Assembly: GCA_009917695.1 (NCBI GenBank)
Contig: JAACJG010000003.1
Location: 186,001 to 250,000 of the forward strand
Reading direction: 5' to 3'
Source of the DNA: Candidatus Rifleibacterium amylolyticum
GTDB taxonomy: Bacteria > Muiribacteriota > Ozemobacteria > Ozemobacterales > Ozemobacteraceae
DNA: 64,000 nucleotides
How positions within the stretch are numbered: the first letter of the stretch is position 1; each line of letters begins with the position of its first letter. This document shows positions 7,083-64,000 of the stretch, one piece after another. The position numbers and the translations under genes were made by a program. The notes under the pieces were generated by a model that worked only from the letters and a program-made list of their open reading frames with translations, was not told the DNA's origin and did not search any database.

Positions 7083-7555
7083 AATTTTTTTCTGTTCTTT
7101 CCCTCAATCGAATGATGCAGGTTAACTTTTTTGAATTGCCGGCCGGAAAACCAGCAATTTAATAGGCAACGCAGGAAGTTGTCTGCCAACTAAATGGCTT
7201 CTGTATCCCGATGTCATTTTACCAGAGTTCAATGCCGATCACAAAAAATGCTTTGGCACGGCCGAATTTGATCAGCTGGAGCGAGGCCGCGCTTCCATTG
7301 GTCGCTGCAATACCCGGGTCTTCTGAAAAAACCGGTTAAATTTGACATCATAATTTCACCAGATCATAAATGACTAGCTGAAAGCCTGCAAAGCAAGAAA
7401 GGACTCCATTTATCGCTTTGCGCCAATGGGTTCTTGCAAATATCAGCGGTTGGCATGGCGCAAATCATTTTCCCGAGAGGGCTGTAAAACTGTTGGCCTG
7501 ATTATTGCTAATAAACGGGGTTCGTGGTATCCTCTCAAGCCGTGGAGTTTACCTC
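7083..7555. other. 473-base intergenic region, no confident gene
   Basis: The region separates the divergent genes at 6309-7082 (minus) and 7556-8632 (plus). On the plus strand one frame stays open from about 7131 to the TGA at 7324-7326 (about 63 codons) with no start codon; it could be a gene remnant or chance. A TTGACA occurs near 7339 without a convincing -10 at the right distance. Nothing else is supported. Confidence 0.4.
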
Positions 7556-8632
7556 ATGATTTTTCAACTGTTAAGGGCCCTGCTTGTCCTGACCGGAACC
7601 ATCGTCGGTGTTGCGGTCGGCTATGCCATAGCAACCGAATACACTAACCTTATCGAACTCGAAAACCCTGAATTGACTCTGGCTGCTCTGCTGGGGTTCA
7701 TCGGCTATCTGTTCTGCTCGATCGCCGGGCGTGAACTGCATTTGTGGCTCGAAGACCAGATCGAACACAACAACAGCTACGATCTCGCCTGGGGCGCGCT
7801 TGGCCTGCTGCTCGGTCTGATCAGCGCCAACCTGCTGTTCGTGCCGGTGTATTTTTTGATGTACAAAGGCTTCGGCGAGATTCATTTCGATAACAAATAT
7901 CTCGATGGTCTGGTGCCGCTGTTCAACCTCGTGATTCCGCTGTCTTTCAGCCTGCTGGCCGCTTATCTCGGCGTCAAGATCATGCTCCGATACCGGCGTT
8001 ACCAGGCCAAAATCAACACCGACGGCGTCGCCGCCCGCCACAAGATCATCGATACCAGCGCCATCATCGATGGCCGTTTCGCTGATCTGTTCCGGCTTGG
8101 ATTCCTCGAAGGCAACATAATAATTCCGCGTTTCGTGGTCAACGAACTGCAGTTTCTCTCTGATTCTTCAGACGAGATCAAACGCAGCAAGGGGCGCAAA
8201 GGCCTGGTCAGTCTCAACCAGCTCAAAAGCGAATTTCCCGACCTGATCGTAATTGCCGAAAATGATTACGCTGATATCAACGAAGTCGATGCCAAGCTGG
8301 TTAAGCTCGCTTCCGAACTCAAGGCGATTATGATTACGCAGGACTACAACCTCAAAAAGGTTGCAGAGCTCGATCGCATAACTGTTCTGAACGTTAATGA
8401 TCTCGTGAATGCCCTCAAGCCGATTTTTGTCAGCGGTGAGGATATCGAAGTTAAAATTGTGAAAAAGGGTAAGGAGCCGTGTCAGGGCGTTGGGTTCTTA
8501 TCAGATGGCACCATGGTAGTAATAGAGGATGGCGGAGACCATGTGGGCGAGACGGTTAAAACCACGGTCAGCAACATTTTGCAGACCGGCGCCGGTAGAA
8601 TGATTTTCTGCCGCATAGGTAACCAGAAATGA
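7556..8632 (+). CDS. Membrane-anchored PIN-TRAM domain protein (YacL-like)
   Basis: This 358-residue protein has four N-terminal membrane segments (about residues 5-25, 37-55, 75-100, 122-144), a PIN nuclease-fold domain beginning IIDTSAIIDGR at about residue 163 with conserved acidic residues (DTS, NEL, DAKL, TQDYNL), and a C-terminal TRAM domain (about 290-355). The architecture is that of the YacL/PilT-N family found in many Gram-positive and other bacteria; the physiological substrate is not established. The ATG at 7556 was chosen for its GGAG ribosome site (7544-7547) and because it starts the first membrane segment. The CBS-HutP gene follows 28 bases later. Confidence 0.9.
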   Translation: MIFQLLRALLVLTGTIVGVAVGYAIATEYTNLIELENPELTLAALLGFIGYLFCSIAGRELHLWLEDQIEHNNSYDLAWGALGLLLGLISANLLFVPVYFLMYKGFGEIHFDNKYLDGLVPLFNLVIPLSFSLLAAYLGVKIMLRYRRYQAKINTDGVAARHKIIDTSAIIDGRFADLFRLGFLEGNIIIPRFVVNELQFLSDSSDEIKRSKGRKGLVSLNQLKSEFPDLIVIAENDYADINEVDAKLVKLASELKAIMITQDYNLKKVAELDRITVLNVNDLVNALKPIFVSGEDIEVKIVKKGKEPCQGVGFLSDGTMVVIEDGGDHVGETVKTTVSNILQTGAGRMIFCRIGNQK

Positions 8633-8660: not shown

Positions 8661-9446
8661 ATGGGTATACGCGTAAAAGAAATAATGGATCGCAACCCGA
8701 TCATCGTCGACGCGAGTCAGACCGTGTTCGGGCTTAGAGAACTGGTAATACTCAGGCAGCCCGAGTGTGTACTGGTCACTGACGCTGAAAAGCGCCTGGT
8801 CGGCATCATGACGCCGTCGCATCTCGCGACGATTTCAGATGTCGATATCGAAGAGAAAGTTACCGCGGTGATGGAAAGCAAGTTTCGCCGGGTCAACTGT
8901 AACATGTCGGTGCGCGAAGCCGCCGCCATGCTCTCGGCCAGCGAACTCGAAGCGCTGCCGGTCGTCGATAACAACGACGAGCTCGTCGGCGTCGTCACCT
9001 ACAAAGACATTGTCAAAGACCTTGTCGAAGACCGCGAAGATCAACTGTTGACGCCCGAAAGCGCGGTAATCTACCTGTCGATGACCAAAGACCCCGAACA
9101 GGAAGAATACTGGCTGCAGAAAGTCAGCAACAAAGGCTATCGCGCTGCGATCACCCAGGTCGGCGCCACCGCCGAGAAGCTGCCGATCAAATTGCGCGAA
9201 GCGACTATCGTCGCGGCAATCGCGCGTTCGGTCATCAAAGAAGATTCGCGTGAGAAATTCTCGGTCAGCAACGCTGTTCGCGATATTTTCAGTCAGCTTT
9301 ATACAATCAACCCCGGGCTTGGTGGCGGTTTTAAGGTCGCCATCGTGCGCGGCGAAGGCAGAATAGCGGTAGCGGCTTTTGGTCGCTGCGGTCATGCCCT
9401 GTCGAATGGTAACGAACAGATTTTCATGGGGAGCAACATCATTTAA
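8661..9446 (+). CDS. CBS-domain pair fused to a HutP-like domain
   Basis: This 261-residue cytoplasmic protein starts with two CBS domains (about residues 7-60 and 72-122; IMDRNPIIVD and LPVVDNNDELVGVVTYKDI). The remaining part, about 135-261, matches HutP in pattern: a GYRAAITQVG strand, an alternating helix, FKVAIVRG, and a C-terminal IAVAAFGRCGHA followed by FMGSNII. HutP is the histidine- and Mg-dependent antiterminator of Bacillus hut operons. The three metal-binding histidines of Bacillus HutP appear to be replaced here (REKFSVSNAV and NEQIFMGSN contain none). CBS domains usually sense adenine nucleotides. RNA binding is inferred from the fold only. It lies between a PIN-TRAM gene and gltX. 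Confidence 0.8.
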   Translation: MGIRVKEIMDRNPIIVDASQTVFGLRELVILRQPECVLVTDAEKRLVGIMTPSHLATISDVDIEEKVTAVMESKFRRVNCNMSVREAAAMLSASELEALPVVDNNDELVGVVTYKDIVKDLVEDREDQLLTPESAVIYLSMTKDPEQEEYWLQKVSNKGYRAAITQVGATAEKLPIKLREATIVAAIARSVIKEDSREKFSVSNAVRDIFSQLYTINPGLGGGFKVAIVRGEGRIAVAAFGRCGHALSNGNEQIFMGSNII

Positions 9447-9448
9447 TC

Positions 9449-10879
9449 ATGTCACAGCAGGTTCGTGTGCGCTTTGCGCCGTCTCCAACCGGTTATCTTC
9501 ACGTCGGCGGAGCCCGTACGGCTCTTTTTAACTGGCTTTTTGCCCGCAAAACCGGCGGCACCTTCGTGCTGCGTGTCGAAGATACCGATGTCGAACGGTC
9601 AACGCAGGAATCAGTAGATGGCCTGCTGCGCGACATGAAATGGCTAGGCCTGACCTGGGACGAAGGCCCCGAAGTTGGTGGTCCGCACGGCCCCTACTTT
9701 CAGTCACAGCGCCTCGAAATTTATCAGAGCTATGCCCGCCGCCTGCTCGATAACGGCGCGGCTTACCCATGCTTCTGCAAAGAAGAAGAACTCGAAGCCA
9801 AACGCCAGAAAGCCGAAGAAGAACATCGTTCGCTGCACTACGACGGAACCTGCCGTCATCTGAGCAAAGATGAGGTCGAGCGCCGCATCGCCGCCGGCGA
9901 GACCTATGTTGTGCGCGTAAAAGTGCCCGAAAAAGATTATGTGCTCGAAGATCTTGTGCGTGGCCGGGTTGAGTGGAAAGCCGAAACACTCGGCGACTTC
10001 ATTGTTCTGCGTTCGAGCGGCATGCCGGTCTACAATTTCTGCGTCGTCGTCGATGACGCTGATATGAAGATTTCGCATGTGGTGCGGGCTGAAGAGCATC
10101 TTACCAACACCCATCGTCAGCTGATTCTTTATGAAGCGCTGGGTATCAAACCGCCGATTTTCGCACATGCTTCGCTGATTCTTGGCGAAGACAAATCGAA
10201 ACTGTCGAAACGGCACGGTGCCACGGCTGTCGGTCAGTATGCCGAAGACGGCTTTCTGCGCGATGCCATGATCAATTTTCTTGCCCTGCTCGGCTGGAAC
10301 GAAGGCACCGACCGCGAAATCTACAGCGTAAAAGAACTGATCGAAAGCTTCTCACTCGAGCGCATCAGTAAATCGCCCGGCGTTTTCGACCATAACAAGC
10401 TGATCTGGATGAACGGTCAACACCTGCGCGCCATGCCGGTCGATGAACTGCTGCCACTGGTTGTGCCGGTTCTTAAAAAGGCCATGCCAGACGACGCCCG
10501 TCTCAACAACCCCGAGGTTCTGCGCAAGCTGGTCGAGCTGATTCAGATCAAGATGAACACGCTCAACGATGCCGTGCCGGTTGCCGAATCGATATTGCGC
10601 GCCAATCAGCCCGAAGACGAAGAGTCTGTCGCCATGGTCGGCACCGAAAAGTCAAAAGCGCTGTTTGCCGCTCTGGCCAAAGAATTCGCAACCTGCGAAT
10701 GGGTTAAAGACGGATACAATGCCGCCATCAAAGCCGCCGGCAAGGCCGCCGACGCTAAGGGCAAAGACCTCTTCATGCCGATCCGCGCCAAGATCACCGG
10801 TTCCTGTCACGGCCCCGAACTCGTCGGCATCCTCGATGTGCTTGGCCGCGACGAAGTCATCAACCGCCTCAACAACTAG
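9449..10879 (+). CDS. gltX: Glutamyl-tRNA synthetase
   Basis: GltX charges tRNA-Glu (or tRNA-Glu and tRNA-Gln in non-discriminating forms) with glutamate. The 476-residue protein is of class I: a HIGH-type motif HVGG at residues 18-21 after FAPSPTGYL, and a KMSKS-type motif SKLSKR at about 250-255. The catalytic fold is followed by an alpha-helical anticodon-binding region. Length and motifs are typical of bacterial GltX. The ATG lies 2 bases after the stop of the CBS-HutP gene, so they are probably co-transcribed. Whether the enzyme is discriminating cannot be told from the sequence. Confidence 0.97.
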   Translation: MSQQVRVRFAPSPTGYLHVGGARTALFNWLFARKTGGTFVLRVEDTDVERSTQESVDGLLRDMKWLGLTWDEGPEVGGPHGPYFQSQRLEIYQSYARRLLDNGAAYPCFCKEEELEAKRQKAEEEHRSLHYDGTCRHLSKDEVERRIAAGETYVVRVKVPEKDYVLEDLVRGRVEWKAETLGDFIVLRSSGMPVYNFCVVVDDADMKISHVVRAEEHLTNTHRQLILYEALGIKPPIFAHASLILGEDKSKLSKRHGATAVGQYAEDGFLRDAMINFLALLGWNEGTDREIYSVKELIESFSLERISKSPGVFDHNKLIWMNGQHLRAMPVDELLPLVVPVLKKAMPDDARLNNPEVLRKLVELIQIKMNTLNDAVPVAESILRANQPEDEESVAMVGTEKSKALFAALAKEFATCEWVKDGYNAAIKAAGKAADAKGKDLFMPIRAKITGSCHGPELVGILDVLGRDEVINRLNN

Positions 10880-53267: not shown

Positions 53268-54119
53268 ATGAGAGAGAGTGTTGTGTTGTCGAAACCTTTA
53301 AGCCCAAACCAGTCAGCGACCATGACAGCTTCTGGAGCGTTGCTGATGTTGTCTCTAATGGTAATGTTGCTGTTACCGTCGGTCGCGTCAGCAGCAGGTA
53401 TCGATGCGGTGATGCGTTCTGTTGTTGCGCTGAGCGGTCGCGACGCTTCTGGCGAACAGGTTTTTGCCACCGCTTTTATGGTAGAAGCACCTGGTCGTAA
53501 TGCCGTCTGGCTGGTGAGCAGCGCGCACAGCTTCAACAGCATTGCCGAAGATTTTGCCAGGGTCAATCTGCGGCGTTGTGAGCGTGGCATCTACTTTCCT
53601 TTACCTTTGCAGGTGCAGATTCGCCGGCAGGGGCGCGCCCTTTATGCCAGTCATGCGAACCTCGATCTGGCAGCGATCAAGATCGAACTGCCAGGAGAAG
53701 CCGACTATTGTGTATTGTCGCGTGATTTTATCGCTGACGAAAGACAGCTGGGTCGTGCCAGTGTTGGCGCAGGTTCGCAGGTTATTATTGCCGGCTTTCC
53801 TTATGGTGAGGCTTGTAATGAGGCGGGTTTTGCCTTCGCCCGCAGCGGCGTGATATCGAGCTTTCCATTGCGCCCGACCAACCTTTATCCGGTTTTTTAT
53901 GTCGATTTCGAAGTGTTTGCCGGTTACAGTGGCGCGCCGGTCATTCTGGCCGGTTCTGGCGGTGGCGCTTTGCTTATGGGAATGGTGCTCGAAGAGGTCT
54001 TTCTCGAAGAGCTGAGACCGCAGAAAGGCCGCAAACAGCTGCGCACGCGGCGCGGGCTCGGCCTTGCCAAGGTATTGAGCGCACCATCCATTGCCGAGTT
54101 TATTGGCGGTTTACGCTGA
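53268..54119 (+). CDS. Exported trypsin-like serine protease, putative
   Basis: This 283-residue protein has a signal peptide near residues 20-42 (LLMLSLMVMLLLPSVASA), or starts at ATG 53322 (codon 19). Catalytic triad candidates are H87 (SSAHSF), D133 (ANLDLAAIKI) and S221 (GYSGAP). GxSGxP around the Ser is typical of trypsin-like endopeptidases. The rest lacks PDZ or other domains. Substrate is unknown. It is 2 bases after hemW, and its last 20 bases overlap the convergent gene at 54100-55362. Confidence 0.78.
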   Translation: MRESVVLSKPLSPNQSATMTASGALLMLSLMVMLLLPSVASAAGIDAVMRSVVALSGRDASGEQVFATAFMVEAPGRNAVWLVSSAHSFNSIAEDFARVNLRRCERGIYFPLPLQVQIRRQGRALYASHANLDLAAIKIELPGEADYCVLSRDFIADERQLGRASVGAGSQVIIAGFPYGEACNEAGFAFARSGVISSFPLRPTNLYPVFYVDFEVFAGYSGAPVILAGSGGGALLMGMVLEEVFLEELRPQKGRKQLRTRRGLGLAKVLSAPSIAEFIGGLR

Positions 54120-55362
54120 TTTCGGCTTTGAGAGCTTCAGAAAAACTGACCAGGTCGATAAGACGGTCTTCGCTGCTGATAATCTGTATTTTTGTGTTCA
54201 TAGCGAAACGCTTTTGTGCTTCAGCCATTTCCTTTTCGGCCATTTCTGGCTGATTGCTGCGTTTAAAGGCCCGGATGCGGTAAAGATACATGTGCGGCGC
54301 CATGATGCCGTTTGGCCGGTTTTCGAGATATTGCGATGTCCAATATAACGTCTGCTCTGTGTCGCCAAGCTTGTCGAACGAGAGCCTGACCAGGCTGGCC
54401 ATAGCTTCATCTGACCAGACATTTTGTTTGCCGAAACGTTTTATAAAGCTTTCGTAAGCGGCTTTGGCTTTTTCGAACTGATTGAGGCGGCGGTCGAGTA
54501 TCCAGGCCATGCGGTAGGTAACTGAGTCCATATATCGGTAGTCAGGAAATCGTTCAGTCAGATGTCTTAGTGTTTCATAGGCCGCAGCTGGCTCGACAAA
54601 GGTGCGTAGCTGGATCTCAGCCCGATAATAGAGAATCAGTGCTGGTCTGAAAAATATCACCCAGCCGGCAAATATCAGCCCGAGCACGAATATGCAAAGC
54701 AGCGCCAGCCGGTTGAACCTGGTAGCGCGCACCCGGCTGGTCTTTGTCTGTTCCCCATCCTGGCGCATGCGCTCGAGAGTAGAGCCAATATCGACACTGA
54801 TGTTGCCTGATTGCATAAGCTCATTGCTGACTTTTTGAACGTGGCCGCGCGAAATCTCGATAATCCAGTTGAAAACCTGAAGAATCGAAGAGGCGAATTG
54901 AAGAGTAACCACAATCAGCATCGAGGCAAAACAGGTAAAAAAGAACGAAGTGGTATCCTGACCGGTCAGGCCAAGCCAGTTGTTCCAGAAACCCCTGCCA
55001 AGCAGCCTGTTTGACAGCCCGAGAAAAACCCATGAGCTCAGTGTCACTGCGCCAACCACAGTCATCGGGTAGCACCAGAGAATAAAGGTCGGATAACTGA
55101 TCTGCATGCTGGCAGCAATACGGTCAGTAAATCTGGCAGCGACACGACAGACAAGTATAAAGAAAATTAAAAATGCGCAGATCATCATGGTGGGCTCTGG
55201 CAGGCGCAGCAGCATTTTCTGCGAGCCAAGCAGCAATACTGCGACAAAAATACTGGCAGAAAAAGGAGCCAGCCATTTTAGGCGCAGTTCAAAAATGCTC
55301 CGGGTAGATAAATACTCAAGCTGCATAGCTAAAAAATACACCAGATTACGATTCTTTTCCAT
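54100..55362 (-). CDS. TPR-containing multi-pass membrane protein
   Basis: This 420-residue protein has about five hydrophobic segments in its first 235 residues (for example FSASIFVAVLLLG, MMICAFLIFFILVC, YPTFILWCYPMTVVGAVTLS, FTCFASMLIVVTL, LLCIFVLGLIFAGWVIFF). The C-terminal about 160 residues are outside the bilayer and TPR-like (YETLRHLTERFPDYRYMDSV, AKAAYESFIKRFGKQN). This suggests a Yip1-like membrane module joined to a TPR scaffold, but I cannot fix the family. It overlaps the 3' end of the serine protease gene by 20 bases, tail to tail. Confidence 0.72.
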   Translation of the reverse strand: MEKNRNLVYFLAMQLEYLSTRSIFELRLKWLAPFSASIFVAVLLLGSQKMLLRLPEPTMMICAFLIFFILVCRVAARFTDRIAASMQISYPTFILWCYPMTVVGAVTLSSWVFLGLSNRLLGRGFWNNWLGLTGQDTTSFFFTCFASMLIVVTLQFASSILQVFNWIIEISRGHVQKVSNELMQSGNISVDIGSTLERMRQDGEQTKTSRVRATRFNRLALLCIFVLGLIFAGWVIFFRPALILYYRAEIQLRTFVEPAAAYETLRHLTERFPDYRYMDSVTYRMAWILDRRLNQFEKAKAAYESFIKRFGKQNVWSDEAMASLVRLSFDKLGDTEQTLYWTSQYLENRPNGIMAPHMYLYRIRAFKRSNQPEMAEKEMAEAQKRFAMNTKIQIISSEDRLIDLVSFSEALKAEISVNRQ

Positions 55363-55474
55363 TATGCCGGTTGCCGCAAGGCAGTCGATAAAAATTTGTT
55401 CTTATTAAATCAGTCGAAACTGTCGATAGAGGAACTGAGCATTCATATTCCCCAAGGAAAAAGATAAGAAAAGA

Positions 55475-57778
55475 ATGAGGCAAACAAAGAATTATAGCGT
55501 ATTTTCCCTGCTCTCGGGGTTACTGGTAACGCTTCTGTGCCTTGCGCTGCCCGCCGCCGCTCTGGCGCAATCAGCTGCTTTTCAGGATTTGCCGCGCGAC
55601 CACTGGGCATATTCAGACGTTGAGTTCCTTATCAGCCAGGGCTATATGGAAGGCTATCCCGACGGCACCTTTAAAGGTCGCAAAGTCACCACCCGCTACG
55701 ATGTCGCCCTCATTCTCGCACGCATTCTCAAACGCATGGAAGAGAAAAAGGCTAATATCGATGCCGCCAGCGAAGAAGAGCGTGCTGCTCTGACCCGCCT
55801 TACCAAAGAATTCAGAGACGAACTCGGTCTGCTCGATGTTCGCGTCGATTCGCTCGAACGTCGCATGGTAGACAGCGAAAACAAAGTCAAAGAAATCGAG
55901 GGCATGCTGCCCAAGGTTAAGGTCTCGGGCTTTTACCGAGCTCGCGCCCAATACATTATCGATCCAGAAACCGCCGGCAGAAACGTTGCTGGCGATTCTA
56001 CCTCATTCACTGATCCTGGTCTGGTGACTTTTTACCAGGAGGTATACCTCAGTTTCGTCGGTAAGCCTCTGGGTGAAAAGCTTGAAACATTTTATGAACT
56101 TTACGGCTTCATTCAGGGTAAGACCTGGAACAAGGTCGTTTACAGCCAGTCTGGCACCCCGAATCCATTCGATAACATCGACGATTACGTAAGCAAAGTG
56201 CAAAATGACAGAATATTGCTTTCTAACCGAATGCACATTCTCAGCAATGCCAAGTCGATGAAAGTCAGGGTTTTTTCAAGTGAAGGCGCCAGTGGTATCG
56301 ATGACCCGATGAATATTCTGACCGAAGATACCGACGTTGTTCAGCCCTACCAGGGTATTGAAGTGTCAGGTTCTGAAAGTGGTGTTTCATACCAGGGCTC
56401 GGTTCTTAAAACAGATCTGAATCGTGGCTACACAGACAGCACTGATATGGTAACCGGTCGCCTCGTCTGGAAACTGCCGGAAAAATTCAGCGAAGACAAC
56501 TTTTCTGTCGGCACTTCCTATGCTGAAAAGATTCTTGATTACAAAACAGTTGGCAATTCCAATACTGTCCGTGGATTCGATGTAAACTACTCGACCGATC
56601 GGGCCGGCAAAATCCAGGCTACTGCCGAGTTTCTGACTTCAGCTTCATACCTTTATGACGGCGGTGAGAAGAAAATGCGCAATATGCCCGATGAAGGCTC
56701 GCGCTTCGATATTACCGTTCAGAACGGCGGTCTTACCGGTACAGTTAAACATTATGATTTTGGCAGATACTTCCGGGCCATGATGGCTCCGGCATGGGCT
56801 TATGATATTGGTGATCTACAGGATTACCCGAACAATCTGAATATGGATGCAGACGACGGCAACTATGGTCGCCCCGACTTTGCCGGCGAAAAACTCACCA
56901 GATTCGGAGTCAACTATGACTTTGGCAACAAGCTGCTGGCGATAGCCAACAATCTGTCGGTCGAAGCAACCTACCTTTCTAAAACCTGGGAGACTGATCC
57001 TTATAACGAGCATGATACTGATGGACATTCGGGCCGCAAGTTCACCTTTCAGCTGTTGTCTGACTTTACCGACAAGACTACTTTCAAGTACGACTTTGTT
57101 CAGAAATGGGATGCGTTTGAGGGTGAGCAGGGCGAAAAGTCGAATGCCGTTGAGCTGAATCTGCGCCTGAGTGATTCGGTCAGCGCCAAAGGCAAGATGC
57201 TGGTCTGGGGTGATCCAGATGATACATTTGTCGACAATGGCACAACATATGACAACAATGAACGGGTTGGTTATTTCGAAATCAACTCAGACATCAACCC
57301 GAGAGTCTATGCCAAGGGCAGCGTCGAGCATCAGGTCGGCTGGGTGAGCTCGCCGCGTGAAAATATCAGAGTAGACTACATAGGCGAAGCCACTTATAAC
57401 TTTACGCCGACAACCAGTCTGACCTGTGGCGTTCAGCATGTTGATTATGAAGATTCCGGCGATGGCAGTAAGTCAAGCCTGGCCAACGCAATTCTGGCTG
57501 AGCTCAAGAAGAACTTTACCAACAAGTTCAGGGGCCGCGCCTTTTATTCGCGGGGTGTCATCGACTTCAAAGATGGTAACAGAGACCCCATCGATCGCGA
57601 AAACATCTATGGCGAGCTGATCTACGATGTCAGCAAAAGTGCCACCATCAGATTCAAATTCGGTTATGACTACCCTGACGAATGGCGCTGGGCGATCACC
57701 AGCACCGATAACGGCAGAGATTACGAAGACATTCACACTCAGAAGATGTTTATCTTCGAGGCCAGATCAAATTTTTAG
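55475..57778 (+). CDS. SLH-domain outer-membrane porin-like protein
   Basis: This 767-residue protein has a signal peptide (LLVTLLCLALPAAALA), one SLH domain (about 35-90: FQDLPRDHWAYSDVEFLISQ, YPDGTFKGRKVTTRYDVALI), a coiled coil (about 90-145) and a large C-terminal beta barrel (about 150-767) ending in Phe. SLH domains bind peptidoglycan-linked polymers, and this SLH-coiled-coil-barrel plan is used by Thermus, Deinococcus, cyanobacteria and diderm Firmicutes to tether the outer membrane. The barrel part is rich in alternating aromatic strands. It opens the envelope block. The ATG follows an AAGGAAAAAG-type site. Confidence 0.88.
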   Translation: MRQTKNYSVFSLLSGLLVTLLCLALPAAALAQSAAFQDLPRDHWAYSDVEFLISQGYMEGYPDGTFKGRKVTTRYDVALILARILKRMEEKKANIDAASEEERAALTRLTKEFRDELGLLDVRVDSLERRMVDSENKVKEIEGMLPKVKVSGFYRARAQYIIDPETAGRNVAGDSTSFTDPGLVTFYQEVYLSFVGKPLGEKLETFYELYGFIQGKTWNKVVYSQSGTPNPFDNIDDYVSKVQNDRILLSNRMHILSNAKSMKVRVFSSEGASGIDDPMNILTEDTDVVQPYQGIEVSGSESGVSYQGSVLKTDLNRGYTDSTDMVTGRLVWKLPEKFSEDNFSVGTSYAEKILDYKTVGNSNTVRGFDVNYSTDRAGKIQATAEFLTSASYLYDGGEKKMRNMPDEGSRFDITVQNGGLTGTVKHYDFGRYFRAMMAPAWAYDIGDLQDYPNNLNMDADDGNYGRPDFAGEKLTRFGVNYDFGNKLLAIANNLSVEATYLSKTWETDPYNEHDTDGHSGRKFTFQLLSDFTDKTTFKYDFVQKWDAFEGEQGEKSNAVELNLRLSDSVSAKGKMLVWGDPDDTFVDNGTTYDNNERVGYFEINSDINPRVYAKGSVEHQVGWVSSPRENIRVDYIGEATYNFTPTTSLTCGVQHVDYEDSGDGSKSSLANAILAELKKNFTNKFRGRAFYSRGVIDFKDGNRDPIDRENIYGELIYDVSKSATIRFKFGYDYPDEWRWAITSTDNGRDYEDIHTQKMFIFEARSNF

Positions 57779-57788
57779 GACTGGAATA

Positions 57789-58952
57789 ATGAAAAAGGCA
57801 TTTCTGACAGTATTTATTATTCTGACAGCGGTTTTTTCAAGCGGCTGTATTCAGGAATCACTGGTGATTCCAGTCGCTATCATCAAGGGAAAAGTCGTCG
57901 TACCGCCCGGGCAGATTTCGCGCGGAGTCAAGATAACTGTCGCCGGAACTTCATACAGTGCCTATGCCGATGACAGAGGTGAATATTCGATAGAATTGCG
58001 CAAATCAGGCCGATATCTGCTGGTTGCCCGTGGCCGCAGCTTCGATGTTGGTTACACCTGGGTTGATGCCGAGACCGAAAAAACAGCGACTCCACCCGAT
58101 ATTTCCCTGTCGACGAAAATTGTCGGTGAAGCTCTTTGGATCGCTTCTATCGTTGATTTCCCACAGGCCACCGCGTTTAATCTGGTGTCAGTAAGCCCGG
58201 TCTGGTCGCCAGATAAAGTCAAGATGTACGATGATGGCAGCCATGGTGATCTGCTGGCGAACGACGGTATTTACAGCGTGCGGCTGACTAATCTTACCAC
58301 TGGTTCGCAACAATATAAATTCGAGCTTAGCAAAGCTGATGGCAGCACTGAAACCAAGTCGGATCCGCATCAGGAATACACCAGAAACGGTAATTCCGAA
58401 ATTTACATTCTCGAATCAACAGTTAAGCTGGCCCGTGGTTATGTTACCAGCGACCTTAACAGTGTTAATTATTCAGAAGTTAAACTGGCTACCAAAAAGG
58501 GTTCACGCTCGATGTATCTCGACTCTGACGGTGGTTACAGTTTCGCAATGGAAGGGAACGGCCGCGAATATCTGGTGTTCCGCAGTTCTAACTTCAACAT
58601 CAGAGCTATTCCCATCGATCTTTCGACTGTCACTTTGTATGAGGTGCCGCCGACAACGCTTTCAGCCAAGAAAGGCGGCGAACTCAAAGTCATTCTGGTT
58701 GCCTCTGACTTCGTTGATGTTTCCAATCCGACGGTTGTTGGCTCTTTCAAGGGCTGGAGCAATCCGCAGCAGCTCTATGATGATGGCACCAACGGTGATG
58801 AAGTTGCTGGCGACGGCGTCTATACCCGCCTGTTTACCGGTATTGCACCCGGCTACTATCAGTATGCCTTCAATATCAACAGCGAAAATCAGGTCAAGGA
58901 TCCCTACCAGGAATCCGGTGACGAGACCTATTCGATCATAGGGGTCAAGTAA
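57789..58952 (+). CDS. Lipoprotein with carboxypeptidase-regulatory-like and choice-of-anchor X-type repeats
   Basis: This 387-residue lipoprotein starts at ATG 57789 (10 bases after the previous stop, AGGACTGG site). Lipobox FSSGC places the lipid on Cys near residue 19. An N-terminal carboxypeptidase-D regulatory-like domain (KGKVVVPPGQISRGVKITVA) is followed by repeats with DDGSHGDLLANDGIYS and DDGTNGDEVAGDGVYT, the pattern of choice-of-anchor X domains, and a DPYQES ending. It is probably on the periplasmic or outer face of the outer membrane. No enzyme motif is seen. Confidence 0.8.
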   Translation: MKKAFLTVFIILTAVFSSGCIQESLVIPVAIIKGKVVVPPGQISRGVKITVAGTSYSAYADDRGEYSIELRKSGRYLLVARGRSFDVGYTWVDAETEKTATPPDISLSTKIVGEALWIASIVDFPQATAFNLVSVSPVWSPDKVKMYDDGSHGDLLANDGIYSVRLTNLTTGSQQYKFELSKADGSTETKSDPHQEYTRNGNSEIYILESTVKLARGYVTSDLNSVNYSEVKLATKKGSRSMYLDSDGGYSFAMEGNGREYLVFRSSNFNIRAIPIDLSTVTLYEVPPTTLSAKKGGELKVILVASDFVDVSNPTVVGSFKGWSNPQQLYDDGTNGDEVAGDGVYTRLFTGIAPGYYQYAFNINSENQVKDPYQESGDETYSIIGVK

Positions 58953-60091
58953 TGATGTCTTTCGGCAGAACAGCAAAAGTGGTGGCAGCGCTGCTGCTGC
59001 TCTCGGCTGTTGGCGTATTTGCACAAAGTCAGGCTGAGCCGGTAAATTACTTTTATCAGGAAGGTGCCTGGTTTGATATTACCGATAACGTCGGCGATGA
59101 CAAGGGGCCAGGTTACTACCAGTACCCTCTCGACAAGCGTCTGCGCCGCGGAACATTCGACCTCAAACGCTTTACCGTCTATGAAGAAGGTGGCGTCGTG
59201 GTTTTCGAAATTCAGATGCGCAACTACATAATGCGTGACTGGCCTGATACGAGAAATACCGAAGAGCAGGGTTTCGTTGCCAACATGTGGGATATTTACA
59301 TCGACATCGACGGTCGCGAAAACTCTGGCTATAAAGAAGCGCTGATCGGGCGCGATCTTTTGTTCGCCGGTAATATGGGCTGGGAAAAGATGATCATGAT
59401 CACTCCGCTTTCAGAAATCGATGTATTCAATATTCTGCGCGAAAAGACCGATGATCTCGAACTGCGCAATCGTCTCGCCGATATAGTATACCCTGATTAC
59501 ATAAGGGTTCAGCGCGATAAGATCATAGTCAAGATTGCCAGAAGCAAACTGCCTGGCATTTCAGAACGAGCTGGTTATCAGTGTCTGGCTATGGGTTACA
59601 AACAGATTGTGTCACCAAACCGCTTGCTCAATCGAGATGTGAGAGGCTTTCCAACTCAGGATGATTTTGGTGGCGGCCATGATACCTACGGCGATCCGCC
59701 GGTAATGGATATAATAGTGCCCGAAGGCGAAGATCAGTATCAGATTCTGCGTGATTTCAGATCGGAGCCTTATCGCGAAAATATCAGGTATGCGTCGGTT
59801 CCTTTTGTCTACCGCGATGGCAAAAGTCAGCCGCCGCCTCTGGCAGTGCCGGTTAAGGAGCCTGCCAACACAACCGGCATCAATATCCCGCCGCCGAGCA
59901 TAATGCCCCCGGCAACCGCAAAGCCAGCCAGACCGGCCCAGGCAATCAAGCAGCCGGTATCTTCTTCCAGCGACTCGACCGGCTTTGTTCCTCTCAAACC
60001 TGTTACTCAGCCGAAGGCAGATGGCGGCTTCAAGCCAATTCCCAAAGCTCCCGAAGGCTTTATTCCGGTAAAGAAGAAAGACAATCCATGA
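58952..60091 (+). CDS. Exported glucodextranase-C-like protein
   Basis: This 379-residue protein overlaps the previous stop (TAATG) and has a signal peptide (VVAALLLLSAVGVFA). The core (about 40-255) resembles the C-terminal domain of glucodextranase (DNVGDDKGPGYYQYP, RGTFDLKRFTVYEE, MWDIYIDIDG), a carbohydrate-binding-like module often next to SLH domains. A Pro/Lys-rich tail (about 290-379) follows. It may bind envelope polysaccharide. Function is inferred from the module. Confidence 0.78.
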   Translation: MMSFGRTAKVVAALLLLSAVGVFAQSQAEPVNYFYQEGAWFDITDNVGDDKGPGYYQYPLDKRLRRGTFDLKRFTVYEEGGVVVFEIQMRNYIMRDWPDTRNTEEQGFVANMWDIYIDIDGRENSGYKEALIGRDLLFAGNMGWEKMIMITPLSEIDVFNILREKTDDLELRNRLADIVYPDYIRVQRDKIIVKIARSKLPGISERAGYQCLAMGYKQIVSPNRLLNRDVRGFPTQDDFGGGHDTYGDPPVMDIIVPEGEDQYQILRDFRSEPYRENIRYASVPFVYRDGKSQPPPLAVPVKEPANTTGINIPPPSIMPPATAKPARPAQAIKQPVSSSSDSTGFVPLKPVTQPKADGGFKPIPKAPEGFIPVKKKDNP

Positions 60092-60194
60092 CTTGCAGCA
60101 AAATCTTCAGGCAAATCTCATATTTTAACGATGAAATGACGATTAACATTAAAGCACACAAATCAGTTTCAGTTTCCTCAAGGAGGCCACGCCC

Positions 60195-61187
60195 ATGATT
60201 CGACAGAAATTATCTACAACAGCAGGTGTAATGCTGCTGCTATGCCTGTTTATTGTCGTTTCGACCAGTGATGTCTGCGCGCAGTCTGCGCGTTCACGCG
60301 GCATGGGCGGTGCTTTCATAGGTCTATCCGATGACGAATCGGCTACCTTCTACAATCCGGCTGGTTTGTCGCAGATTCAGGGGCGCGAAGCTTCACTGCA
60401 GGTCAAGGTCAACGAGCGTGATGTATTTGACTGGACCAGCGCTGCATTTACCGGTCATATTTATGAAGATCACGTCGAAGACAAGTTTTCGATCACTGAT
60501 TATCTCGAACACAATATTCTTGAAGAGCCGGTGCCGAGGCGCCCCAAATACAGCTACGGCATCGCCTATACCGAAGACAACCGCTCAGAAGCTTTTGGTC
60601 AGCTGGTTGGCGGCGAATATCTCGGTACCAGCCGCAAAACCAAAGATCTCCAACTGGCTTTTGGAACACGTTTTCCCATTGCCCGTCGCATGCTCGCCCG
60701 TGAGCAGCTTTATGGCGGCATCAAAATCCGGCACTACAATCTCGATCGCTGGATTCGCAGTTTACAGCAGCACAGCAAGAGAGACTCAACCTCTCTTGGC
60801 ATAGGTCTGATGTATCATTACAACGATCGCATCACTGGTGGTCTCACTGTGGATAATCTTGTCGAAGATGTAAATGGAACCTACGACCGCCGAGACGGAG
60901 TAAGTCTCAACCTGGGTGCCGCCGTAAAGATCACCAAGGGCACTATTATTGCAGCCGATGCTTTGAACGTTACCAACACTGCTCGCGCCTTTGAACAGCA
61001 GTATCGCATCGGGGTCGAGAAAAAGTTCATCGAAAACGACCTGACCATGCGCATGGGTTCGCTTAACGGAACGCTGACGCTTGGTTTTGGCATGTATGTA
61101 CTGCCTCATATCAGAGTTGATTATTCGTTCTATGATGGCGAAATCGTGCCTGAACATCATGTTGGAGCGCATGTGACCTTTGACTGA
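60195..61187 (+). CDS. PorV/UPF0164-like outer-membrane barrel protein
   Basis: This 330-residue protein has a strong AAGGAGG site (60180-60186) and signal peptide (AGVMLLLCLFIVVSTSDVCA). The mature part begins RSRGMGGAFIGLSDDESATF, the motif of PorV, PorQ and related 14-strand barrels, and ends in a beta strand (GAHVTFD). PorV acts in type IX secretion in Bacteroidetes, but the motif is shared by many unrelated outer-membrane proteins. Location is the outer membrane. It is part of the same block as the SLH porin; no other T9SS gene is present. Confidence 0.82.
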   Translation: MIRQKLSTTAGVMLLLCLFIVVSTSDVCAQSARSRGMGGAFIGLSDDESATFYNPAGLSQIQGREASLQVKVNERDVFDWTSAAFTGHIYEDHVEDKFSITDYLEHNILEEPVPRRPKYSYGIAYTEDNRSEAFGQLVGGEYLGTSRKTKDLQLAFGTRFPIARRMLAREQLYGGIKIRHYNLDRWIRSLQQHSKRDSTSLGIGLMYHYNDRITGGLTVDNLVEDVNGTYDRRDGVSLNLGAAVKITKGTIIAADALNVTNTARAFEQQYRIGVEKKFIENDLTMRMGSLNGTLTLGFGMYVLPHIRVDYSFYDGEIVPEHHVGAHVTFD

Positions 61188-61203
61188 TCGGAGAACGTTG
61201 TTG

Positions 61204-62124
61204 ATGAAACTCGCCATACGTCTGGCACTAATTTTAAGTTTGTTCACCGCCTGCAGTCTGCGGGCGGACTCTTTTATCGAGCCCGAAATTTTTATCAACC
61301 AGAAAATCGAAGTTTTCGGTCTTGCCGGGATTCCCTGGGAGAGTGAATACTCGCACGACGAAGAGCGCGCGCGGGCCTGGATGGATGCTCTGCATCACGC
61401 TTATGAGAAGATACTCAGCCTGCCTCTGATGGAGGGCAAGCTGGTGCGGCACGTCATGCAGACCAACGCTGCTCTCAAAGAGAGGCTTGGTCTCGTTCTG
61501 ATGTCGGCGCCAAAGTATTTTCAGCAGGCTGATGCCTCGGGCCTCATTCGCTGTCGCCTGGAGCTGCCGTTGACCGGCAAACTCAGTGTCAGGTCAGCTC
61601 TTTATCTGGCGGCAATGCGCCCGCAACCGTTACAGCCTGTCAGTTTTCTCGCTTCCTGGAGTGCCGGGCTCAAAGTAGATGAAAATGCCCCGGCACCTGA
61701 TTTTAAAAGAATCATCGTCGATGTGCGCGGCTCCAGTTTTGAACCTTCGCTGTTTCCCAGATTTTTTGATCAGACCGGCATGTTGATTTTTCAAGAATCG
61801 ATGGTGCCATCGGGAGAACGCTTCAGTCGTCCGGCTGTGCGCTTTGAATCCGATATCAGAAAAGCCCGCGCTGAACTTGAAGAGAATGAAACCATGACGG
61901 CAGCAGCTTACGTAAGTGCGTTGTCGCGCCGTGATATCAGCATAGACCATGCAGATACCGATGTTTTTGCGAGATTCTGCCGCGAACTGATTCGCAATCC
62001 TTTACAGGAGCGCGAAATTGTAATTGTCTTCACTCCAGGTGCGTCGACCCCTCGTGGTAAACTTGGTAAAACTGAAGCTAAGGTCGAAGCAGAAGAAAAA
62101 ACAAAAACTCCCGCAGTAAAATAA
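61204..62124 (+). CDS. Exported or lipid-anchored protein of unknown function
   Basis: This 306-residue protein starts at ATG 61204 (GGAGA site at about 61190); TTG codons at 61198, 61201 and 61180 are alternatives that would overlap the previous gene. The N-terminus is LALILSLFTACSLRADS, which could be lipidated at the Cys or cut after LRA. The mature part is predicted alpha/beta (LPP20/FlgO-like pattern near IIVDVRGSSFEPSLFPRF). I cannot assign a family firmly. The C-terminus is Lys/Glu-rich. Confidence 0.65.
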   Translation: MKLAIRLALILSLFTACSLRADSFIEPEIFINQKIEVFGLAGIPWESEYSHDEERARAWMDALHHAYEKILSLPLMEGKLVRHVMQTNAALKERLGLVLMSAPKYFQQADASGLIRCRLELPLTGKLSVRSALYLAAMRPQPLQPVSFLASWSAGLKVDENAPAPDFKRIIVDVRGSSFEPSLFPRFFDQTGMLIFQESMVPSGERFSRPAVRFESDIRKARAELEENETMTAAAYVSALSRRDISIDHADTDVFARFCRELIRNPLQEREIVIVFTPGASTPRGKLGKTEAKVEAEEKTKTPAVK

Positions 62125-62144
62125 CAGATCAGGAGGCATTAACG

Positions 62145-63074
62145 ATGAAAACCGTACGCATATTTACACTTATACTGGTGCTTTGTTCGATTGCCGGCGC
62201 CGCCTGGGCCTCTGAAGAGCAATCGCGCAACCTTGACAAGAAGCTGAGCAGGCTCGAACGCTATATTTATGGCGATGAGCAGAATGGTTCAAACACAGAT
62301 CGTTTGCGGCAGATCGAAGAAGATTTGTTCGGGCGCAACAGTGGCCGCAAGGAAGCTGAAAAAGCTGCATACCTGCATGATTTTGTTTTCAAGGGCTCTC
62401 CGACCAATCCTTCGCTCGATATGAAGTTGAGTTTTCTTGAATGGCGACTGTTCAACCGCACTGGCGAAGGCAACCTCGAAACGCGCCTTGCCGATGTCGA
62501 CAGGCAGGTTACCGGTCATATCTCGATGGAACCACTAGCTTTCAGGCTCGAACAGCAGATACATCTGATCATCGAAAATGGCATGATTTCTCTACATCAG
62601 GTAACTATTCCACGTGGTACCGAAATCAAGATGCGTCTCAAAAAAGACATTTCCAGCCGCACTGCCAGAAAGAACGATCTCATACCAATGGTTCTGGCAC
62701 ACGATGTGTTTATCGACAACAACATCCTGGTCATGACCAATGGCGGCATAGTGACTTCGTCAGTTAAATCGGTTCGCCGTGGCGGCCGCTTTGGGCGCAC
62801 CGGCTATGTGAATCTCGACGTGACAAAAATTGAGAGCATGGATTCAAGCGAATTGCCGATTCAGATCGATGCCGCTGGCGAAAAATTCGACAAAAAGAAA
62901 ATCGGCATGGCAGCTGGTGCTTCTACTCTTGGCTATCTTGTGCTTGGCCCGATTGGACTGGCAGGCGGCGCCTTCATCAAGGGCGGCGAAGTCGAAATCC
63001 CTGCCGGAACCGAGATCAGCGTTCGCACCACTGAAGACTGCAAGGTCATCGGTGTTCTGGTCAACCGCAAATAA
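62145..63074 (+). CDS. Exported protein with LExxxFG-type repeats and a Gly-rich hydrophobic segment
   Basis: This 309-residue protein has AGGAGG at 62131-62136 and a signal peptide (LILVLCSIAGAAWA). Residues about 28-130 contain two degenerate repeats with the pattern KLxxLExxxFG...RLxxIExxxxG (KLSRLERYIYGDE, RLRQIEEDLFG, KLSFLEWRLFN, RLADVDRQVTG), seen in some cyanobacterial and related envelope proteins. A C-terminal part is beta-rich with a Gly-rich stretch (IGMAAGASTLGYLVLGPIGL) near 254-280. It may be periplasmic or outer-membrane associated. It is the last gene of the block and is followed by a terminator. Confidence 0.72.
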   Translation: MKTVRIFTLILVLCSIAGAAWASEEQSRNLDKKLSRLERYIYGDEQNGSNTDRLRQIEEDLFGRNSGRKEAEKAAYLHDFVFKGSPTNPSLDMKLSFLEWRLFNRTGEGNLETRLADVDRQVTGHISMEPLAFRLEQQIHLIIENGMISLHQVTIPRGTEIKMRLKKDISSRTARKNDLIPMVLAHDVFIDNNILVMTNGGIVTSSVKSVRRGGRFGRTGYVNLDVTKIESMDSSELPIQIDAAGEKFDKKKIGMAAGASTLGYLVLGPIGLAGGAFIKGGEVEIPAGTEISVRTTEDCKVIGVLVNRK

Positions 63075-63108
63075 ATCACTGACAACTTTTTAATCGCTCC
63101 AATCTGAG

Positions 63109-63138
63109 GCCGGGCAATACGCCCGGCTTTGTCTTTTT
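63109..63138 (+). terminator. Intrinsic terminator of the envelope block
   Basis: GCCGGGC (63109-63115) and GCCCGGC (63121-63127) form a 7-pair stem with a 5-base loop, followed by TTTGTCTTTTT to 63138. It ends the six-gene block before lgt. Confidence 0.85.
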
Positions 63139-63181: not shown

Positions 63182-64000
63182 ATGTATCCATACCTGTTTA
63201 AAATCGGCCCCCTGACAATTGGTTCTTATGGCGTAATACTCGCCATTGCATTTTTTTCAGCCTTCATGCTGATTAACTGGCAGTTTCGCAAACATGGCTG
63301 CGACGAAGAACTGGCCTGGGATCTGCATTTCCTCGCGATTTTCGGAGGCATGGTCGGTTCACGCCTGATGCACATTATTGAGAACTTCAGAGAGTTCCTC
63401 AATGACCCGATGTCGATGATCTTTACCACCACCGGTTTTTCGGTGCTGGGTGGTTATGTTCTCGCTCTGGTATTGTGCACTTTGCGGGTGCGTTACGCTG
63501 GCCAGCCGTTTTTTAGAATAGCCGATTTATATGTGCCGGGAATGGCGCTCGGCTATGCTATCGGCCGTCTTGGCTGTATTGCTGCCGGCGACGGTTGCTA
63601 CGGTCTGCCCTGCAAACTTCCATGGGCAATGAATTTTCCCAATGGCCTGGTGACTACTCTCAGCGAAAAAAATCAAACACTGGCGGCGACCTATCAACGT
63701 CTGTTTCCTGGCGAACCGTTGCCAACCGATATCAGCGTGCATCCGACGCCCCTGTATGAATCTTTGTCTACTTTTGTTCTTCTGCTTATTCTGCTGTTTG
63801 CCGGTTGGCGCATCGGTGGCGGTCGCCGTTTCGCATTTTTTCTTATCTGGTTTGGCATTTCCCGTTTTCTCGTCGAGTTTATCAGACTTAATCCTGTGGT
63901 TTTATGGGGTTTGTCTTCGAGTCAGCTTTTGTCTGTTTTCTTCGTTCTGGCCGGAGTTTTCATCATGGCTGGAGCCCGGACGAGACTTGCAGATATTCAG
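63182..64000 (+). CDS. lgt: Prolipoprotein diacylglyceryl transferase (3' cut by window edge)
   Basis: Lgt transfers diacylglycerol to the lipobox Cys of prolipoproteins in the inner membrane. From ATG 63182 the frame is open for 273 codons to the window end. It starts MYPYLFKIGPLTIGSYGVIL and has about seven membrane segments. The family core GRLGCIAAGDGCYGLPCKLP (an unusually Cys-rich version of GRxGNFxNGxxxG) and HPTPLYES are visible. Typical length is 260-300 residues, so only the last few residues are missing. A small inverted repeat (AGTAAC/GTTACT, 63154-63172) precedes the start. Confidence 0.9.
   Translation, partial: MYPYLFKIGPLTIGSYGVILAIAFFSAFMLINWQFRKHGCDEELAWDLHFLAIFGGMVGSRLMHIIENFREFLNDPMSMIFTTTGFSVLGGYVLALVLCTLRVRYAGQPFFRIADLYVPGMALGYAIGRLGCIAAGDGCYGLPCKLPWAMNFPNGLVTTLSEKNQTLAATYQRLFPGEPLPTDISVHPTPLYESLSTFVLLLILLFAGWRIGGGRRFAFFLIWFGISRFLVEFIRLNPVVLWGLSSSQLLSVFFVLAGVFIMAGARTRLADIQ

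Follow-up and report, generated by a model that had tools for sequence, protein, structure and literature searches.

Organization of the locus

The window, a stretch of 64,000 nucleotides from Candidatus Rifleibacterium amylolyticum, carries on one strand (+) six open reading frames, here called A to F, whose products are all of the exported type, with a signal sequence, judged by eye, at the start of each. An initial annotation had described at this site a six-gene block with a largest gap of 103 nt, exclusively exported products and a closing terminator, and all of this was reproduced; the intergenic gaps from A to F are 10, -1, 103, 16 and 20 nt. The features are as follows.

55363..55474, + strand: intergenic region upstream of A, likely promoter/leader; leader sequence kept across the genus
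55475..57778, + strand: gene A, SLH porin, 767 aa; signal peptide, SLH domain, coiled-coil stalk, long C-terminal region, last residue Phe
55580..55699, + strand: SLH domain of A (PF00395 match) with the T-R-Y-D/E motif inside
57789..58952, + strand: gene B, lipoprotein, 387 aa; CarboxypepD_reg-like domain and two choice-of-anchor X (E-set/CBM48-type) domains
58952..60091, + strand: gene C, secreted Glucodextran_C protein (PF09985), 379 aa, Pro-rich tail
59981..60073, + strand: three GFxP copies in the C tail (GFVPLK 59981-59998, GFKPIP 60026-60043, GFIPVK 60056-60073)
60136..60198, + strand: short upstream open reading frame (20 codons) between C and D, its stop overlapping the D start codon; kept across the genus
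60195..61187, + strand: gene D, predicted PorV/FadL-like outer-membrane barrel, 330 aa; PorV_fam match below cut-off
61204..62124, + strand: gene E, predicted periplasmic protein, 306 aa; Tp0624 D1-D2-like fold (AlphaFold2 and Foldseek)
62145..63074, + strand: gene F, predicted periplasmic protein, 309 aa; helical LExxxFG-type repeats, then a VirB10/ComB10-like beta domain
62904..62984, + strand: hydrophobic, Gly-rich hairpin of F (residues 254-280), where F is best conserved; low model confidence
63105..63131, + strand: Rho-independent terminator-like hairpin after F; 11 bp, 7 G-C, T tail

The upstream gene (54100-55362) lies divergently on the opposite strand, and the promoter region is thus the 112-nt gap that precedes A; downstream, lgt begins at 63182, beyond the terminator-like hairpin, which is a strong one. 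The spacing of the genes and this hairpin make it likely that A to F form a single transcription unit. For gene E, the most likely start is the ATG at 61204, which has GGAG upstream, the mechanical open reading frame starting at a TTG at 61180. The 20-codon open reading frame in the C-D gap possibly serves as a leader peptide or in translational coupling.

Conservation of the gene order

Forty genomes of the Riflebacteria, an uncultured phylum, were searched with profiles, and 38 loci, namely the window and 37 others fetched around gene C, were compared; because the loci were picked by C, the adjacency counts are conditional on it, and some genes are cut at contig ends. Gene C is present in 36 of the 40 genomes, in single copy in nearly all of them. 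The gene A profile matched 38 of the 40, mostly as a full-length gene or as pieces at contig ends, and in a few genomes (e.g. G037) only the SLH-stalk part, common to other SLH porins, was matched. A and C are adjacent on the same strand wherever a locus has both (29 of 29), and so are C and D (33 of 33), D and E (17 of 17) and E and F (17 of 17). The A-B-C-D core is kept through most of the eight families, and C is 58-72% identical to its counterparts in Candidatus Riflebacteria relatives (GWC2_50_8, HGW-Riflebacteria-1 and others, one of them filed as Erysipelotrichia). Since the order is kept across the phylum, the block is more than a chance arrangement, and the test that the initial annotation had set in advance, conservation of gene order in relatives, did not refute it.

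The same order recurs in a genome assigned to another phylum, of which it is the one member in the data set, where A-B-C-D and a weak F-like gene are found (L107:3281-9687, G123:C6). This sequence forms a very long branch at the base of the tree of A and groups with family f5, by long branches that meet, in the tree of D; we are unsure of its exact position. The block adjoins nucleotide-sugar/pseudaminic-type genes there.

The six-gene block falls into two layers, a phylum-wide A-B-C-D core and an E-F pair confined to the family of this organism (f1). Gene E is limited to the family, where it occurs in 21 of 24 genomes, one outside match (6.7e-4) being taken as chance; full-length F occurs in the family and, without linkage to the block, in two other families. 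D to F appear to have been lost from one genus. Of the four genomes that lack C, at least one, G009, is explained by a contig break, its contig ending within B, and the same probably holds for G007, where E and F lie on a short separate contig; in G029 and G034, both of family f7, A and B are kept and another gene replaces C and D. In one genome the SLH porin gene A is present twice in full length, the extra copy (L059:1406-3913) lying shortly before the block.

These data bear on the view, which we hold to be improbable, that the genes are adjacent but functionally separate envelope genes, held together only through co-regulation. In line with it, the order differs in part, B preceding A in L069 and L074, and E-F and lgt are lineage-specific. 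Yet the A-C and C-D adjacencies persist across very diverged families, overlaps of 4 nt or 1 nt are frequent in these loci, and the C-terminal module that is part of C in families f2, f4 and f5 is a gene of its own behind D in f3, a link of the fusion type.

The SLH porin and its possible role as a tether

The SLH label given to A was borne out by a PF00395 match (4.9e-7). The family profile of A matched the OmpM1 porin of V. parvula (8bys, 1.9e-34) and SlpA of D. radiodurans (7zgx, 3.7e-28), in both cases over profile positions 14-165 only, and a 96-residue SLH-protein fragment (8bz2, 1.7e-30). The motif is TTRYD in the window and TRYD/E in nearly all of 18 aligned homologues, corresponding to the TRAE/TRYE ligand motif, and the Arg of motifs of this type contacts the pyruvate ketal (PMC10628300). 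The C-terminal Phe is invariant among A homologues, and the profile search of the PDB gave no barrel match.

A shares with the OmpM/SLH porins of diderm Terrabacteria (VpOmpM1, Deinococcus SlpA) a signal peptide, an SLH domain with a TRYE-type motif and a coiled-coil stalk, followed by a putative C-terminal outer-membrane region, but its predicted barrel region is not recognizably related to that of OmpM. The likeness extends to the genome, in which, as in OmpM-bearing diderm Terrabacteria, no Pal over cut-off is accompanied by a CsaB-like protein. The CsaB-like domain of the organism's own genome matched PF04230 over cut-off and TIGR03609 with 185 bits (cut-off 213). This pyruvyl transferase domain is fused behind a DUF5693 membrane domain (L118:1294-3786, G000:C2). 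None of the 40 genomes holds a Pal over the TIGR02802 cut-off, and Pal was rejected as a co-tether on this ground; the OmpA-domain proteins that we inspected are MotB and pilin-like OmpA proteins. Two copies of the latter, with a pilin-like N-terminus (judged by eye) and a C-terminal OmpA domain, alternate with prepilin-like genes (L088:4008-5123 and 7099-8181, G000:C2). Apart from the block, the organism's own genome also encodes two tandem OmpM-like SLH porins (L085:6617-8509 and 8894-10813, G000:C3).

Unlike OmpM as described, A always has B, C and D beside it in an operon-like arrangement. OmpM is not known to have partner genes of the B-C-D type; none were found in the open-licence literature, nor did we find, among open-licence papers, any on this gene set or on the Riflebacteria envelope.

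Glycan-type domains of B and C

Two further labels of the initial annotation, choice-of-anchor X for B and glucodextranase-C-like for C, were upheld by clear margins over cut-off: B matched NF041940 with 82.9 bits (8.9e-24; cut-off 25), and C matched PF09985 with 123.7 bits (1e-35; gathering score 22). B also contains a CarboxypepD_reg-like domain (PF13620, 4e-8), its lipobox is conserved in the family, and its profile matched pullulanase 5ot1 (2e-4) and, weakly, AMPK-beta in the PDB. The family profile of C matched glucodextranase 1ug9 (5.9e-13), and C resembles the C-terminal module of this enzyme over nearly its whole length. The module is enzyme-fused in glucodextranase, whereas C stands alone, with either a GFxPLK tail or a pilin-like C-terminal module.

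The tail of C is family-specific. In f1 it is Pro-rich and carries the GFxP(L/V)K motif, in at least one copy in 20 of 22 proteins; the 22 tails (2882 aa) contain 48 matches, where shuffled tails give 0.25 on average and the background is 7 in 84,000 residues of neighbouring proteins. In f2, f4 and f5 the tail is a Cys-pair module, which by eye resembles pilin C-termini; family f3 encodes this module as a membrane-anchored protein of its own, immediately after D. It is a separate gene at L070:10832-11326 and L072:8749-9207, and is fused to C in L067, L069 and L074. The long C tail of family f5 matched none of the A-F profiles. The signal peptide of C is an ordinary one in f1, whereas several other families have C as a lipoprotein.

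Such domains invite the reading that the block is a porin-centred, SusCD-like system of glycan capture and uptake, in which B and C would bind a surface alpha-glucan-like polysaccharide and feed oligosaccharides to A, the SLH domain serving only as an anchor. The CBM48/AMPK-type domains of B fit this reading best in families f4 and f2, where the B position or its neighbour holds AMPK-type glycogen-binding domains (AMPK1_CBM 1.8e-26; GlgB-type matches), and PF09985 is the module present in glucodextranase and in enzymes of family GH57. A locus of another phylum (L103:6670-12195, G117) places a GH57-Glucodextran_C enzyme, a Glucodextran_C protein on its own and a porin-like protein beside a sugar-type ABC transporter, and OmpM1 itself serves as both tether and uptake channel (PMC10628300). 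At the Riflebacteria loci, however, we saw no conserved glycoside hydrolase, sugar transporter or regulator among the neighbours, and the near-universal occurrence of C as a single copy in the phylum contrasts with the patchiness of polysaccharide loci. Set against the residues known from AMPK, the CBM48-like domain also seems to have lost its second sugar-contacting Trp in this family. We regard glycan uptake as a serious but rather unlikely explanation.

The predicted barrel D and a possible export machine

The label PorV-like for D stands only in the sense of a distant relative: D scored 34.9 bits against PorV_fam, below the family cut-off of 90. PorV_fam matched all 23 D homologues, D homologues also matched PorVQ2, and in the PDB the D profile matched a FadL homologue (3dwo) at an E-value of only 0.29; on these sequence matches, D is probably a distant PorV/FadL relative.

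D shares an N-terminal PorV/FadL signature with PorV/PorQ of type IX secretion, but the SprA translocon of that system was not found over cut-off in the Riflebacteria genomes. SprA/Sov matches, none of them over cut-off in the 40 genomes, covered mostly about 100 of 2319 profile positions. Type IX secretion was rejected, the SprA matches being partial and to an outer-membrane-like protein of about 1000 aa. That protein, with its short SprA-profile match, lies near an LptD-like gene in this genome (L083:309-3431, G000:C3), and similar matches occur in 35 of the 40 Riflebacteria. The suggestion of the initial annotation that PorV clients with C-terminal signals might be sought accordingly finds no support here.

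A new surface-export or outer-membrane assembly machine might still be imagined, in which D and F would form or gate an outer-membrane passage and A would provide the anchorage to the wall, with B resembling the type IX plug domain. The PorV_fam/PorVQ2 matches of every D homologue would agree with this, as would matches of the type IX plug model to two B homologues of the phylum and to B of L107 (4e-9 and 5.2e-6) and the VirB10/ComB10-like model of F with its hydrophobic hairpin. Against it, the plug match lies in the same common CBM48-type domain that matches GlgB, SprA is matched over a short profile stretch, D falls under its family cut-off, the locus has no ATPase, motor or type IV secretion partner, and E and F are absent outside the family. 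On balance, an export machine seems quite improbable.

Family-specific additions E and F

Within the genus, E has a Cys near the end of its signal peptide, but the family does not keep this residue, and a signal peptidase I type protein is the best reading of E. Its AlphaFold2 model (pLDDT 79; residues 286-306 disordered) matched Treponema Tp0624 by Foldseek (5jir, E-value 5.7e-10, probability 1.00), with Lpp20 (5ok8) far behind; the LPP20/FlgO-like label is therefore retained only as a weak likeness of structure to LPP20. A sequence-profile search of the PDB with E gave no match to Tp0624. Bromodomain matches in such searches with E and F (E-value 0.35) were taken as chance, and the searches gave nothing useful otherwise. 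Judged by length, the match of the E model probably covers only the D1-D2 tandem of Tp0624, which is the fold modelled for E; Tp0624 goes on to a C-terminal OmpA-like domain, whereas E ends after the D1-D2-like part.

In the model of F (AlphaFold2 pLDDT 78), the LExxxFG repeats noted initially, which are visible in the sequence, lie on N-terminal helices. The C-terminal half matched CagY/VirB10/ComB10 structures by Foldseek (6x6s, 6odi, 3jqo, 2bhv; E-values 5e-4 to 5e-3, probability about 1.00), with a TMq of only 0.28. This half shares the fold of the VirB10/TrbI/ComB10 C-terminal domain and a hydrophobic stretch before the last strands, and the Gly-rich hairpin of F would sit where VirB10 has its outer-membrane antenna. 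F had no Pfam TrbI match (PF03743), a single one of 17 members giving a hit, at 0.083, and no type IV secretion genes were found among the locus neighbours. In place of the inner-membrane anchor of VirB10/TrbI/ComB10, F has a predicted cleavable signal and helical repeats. In several Riflebacteria, the VirB10-like domain of F is also encoded elsewhere on its own, as an exported protein of roughly 170-190 aa (L091-L100).

Discussion

We propose, with a probability of about one half, that the block encodes a multi-protein scaffold, centred on an OmpM-class SLH porin, by which the outer membrane would be attached to the cell wall. A would be a porin, probably trimeric, in the outer membrane, and its SLH domain and coiled-coil stalk would bind the wall; the most likely ligand is a pyruvylated wall polymer whose synthesis would involve the CsaB-like protein. 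The lipoprotein B and the Glucodextran_C protein C would place glycan-binding-type beta-sandwich domains beside the porin, with the repeated GFxPLK motifs of the C tail as docking sites for a partner; D would be the second barrel of the complex, and E and F periplasmic or outer-membrane-associated parts that were added in the family. We infer co-transcription, a physical complex, wall binding, glycan binding and tethering from the sequences, the gene order, its conservation, and domain and model matches.

The initial proposal of a unit around the SLH porin, and possibly a new outer-membrane attachment, is supported in part and agrees with all the tests made, as it does with the presence of further partners that have glycan-binding-type folds. 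The scaffold is favoured by the match of A to OmpM1/SlpA over the SLH domain and stalk with the TRYD/E motif kept, by the CsaB-like domain together with the lack of a Pal over cut-off, and by a core present in most of the eight families and one genome of another phylum, as for an envelope housekeeping function. The D1-D2 unit, moreover, is fused to a wall-binding-type domain in the Tp0624 lineage and lies here beside a putatively wall-binding porin. That the set is nearly universal and has no sugar-metabolism neighbours speaks for the scaffold rather than for glycan uptake or export. Several observations count against it. A may not be the main tether, given at least two further OmpM-like SLH porins in the genome; the domains of B and C are typical of alpha-glucan enzymes, and a porin and C lie in a sugar-uptake locus in another lineage; E and F are family-restricted, one genus has apparently lost D to F, and two f7 genomes have A-B without C-D; and the OmpA-like domain of Tp0624 does not bind normal peptidoglycan in vitro. 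We give still less credence, as a long shot, to a trans-envelope machine in which the OmpM-class porin, anchored to the wall and accompanied by glycan-binding partners, would hold both the PorV-like barrel and a VirB10-like protein that penetrates the outer membrane; such a machine would tether this membrane and also carry substrates through it.

In diderm Terrabacteria, descriptions of the OmpM SLH porins present them as tethers that stand alone, and arguments on how outer membranes were lost draw on the split between the tethers of Terrabacteria and Gracilicutes. In the Riflebacteria, which have no recognizable Pal, an SLH porin belongs to a fixed gene set whose other members, three to five envelope proteins, are unstudied; these are concrete candidates for tether partners, and the fixed set makes it testable whether OmpM works alone. 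Through E and F, two orphan folds, the D1-D2 unit of Tp0624 and VirB10-type domains outside secretion systems, are also placed in a genomic context. The gene set of the Riflebacteria is real and conserved, and it may build a multi-protein version of what is elsewhere a single-protein outer-membrane anchor.
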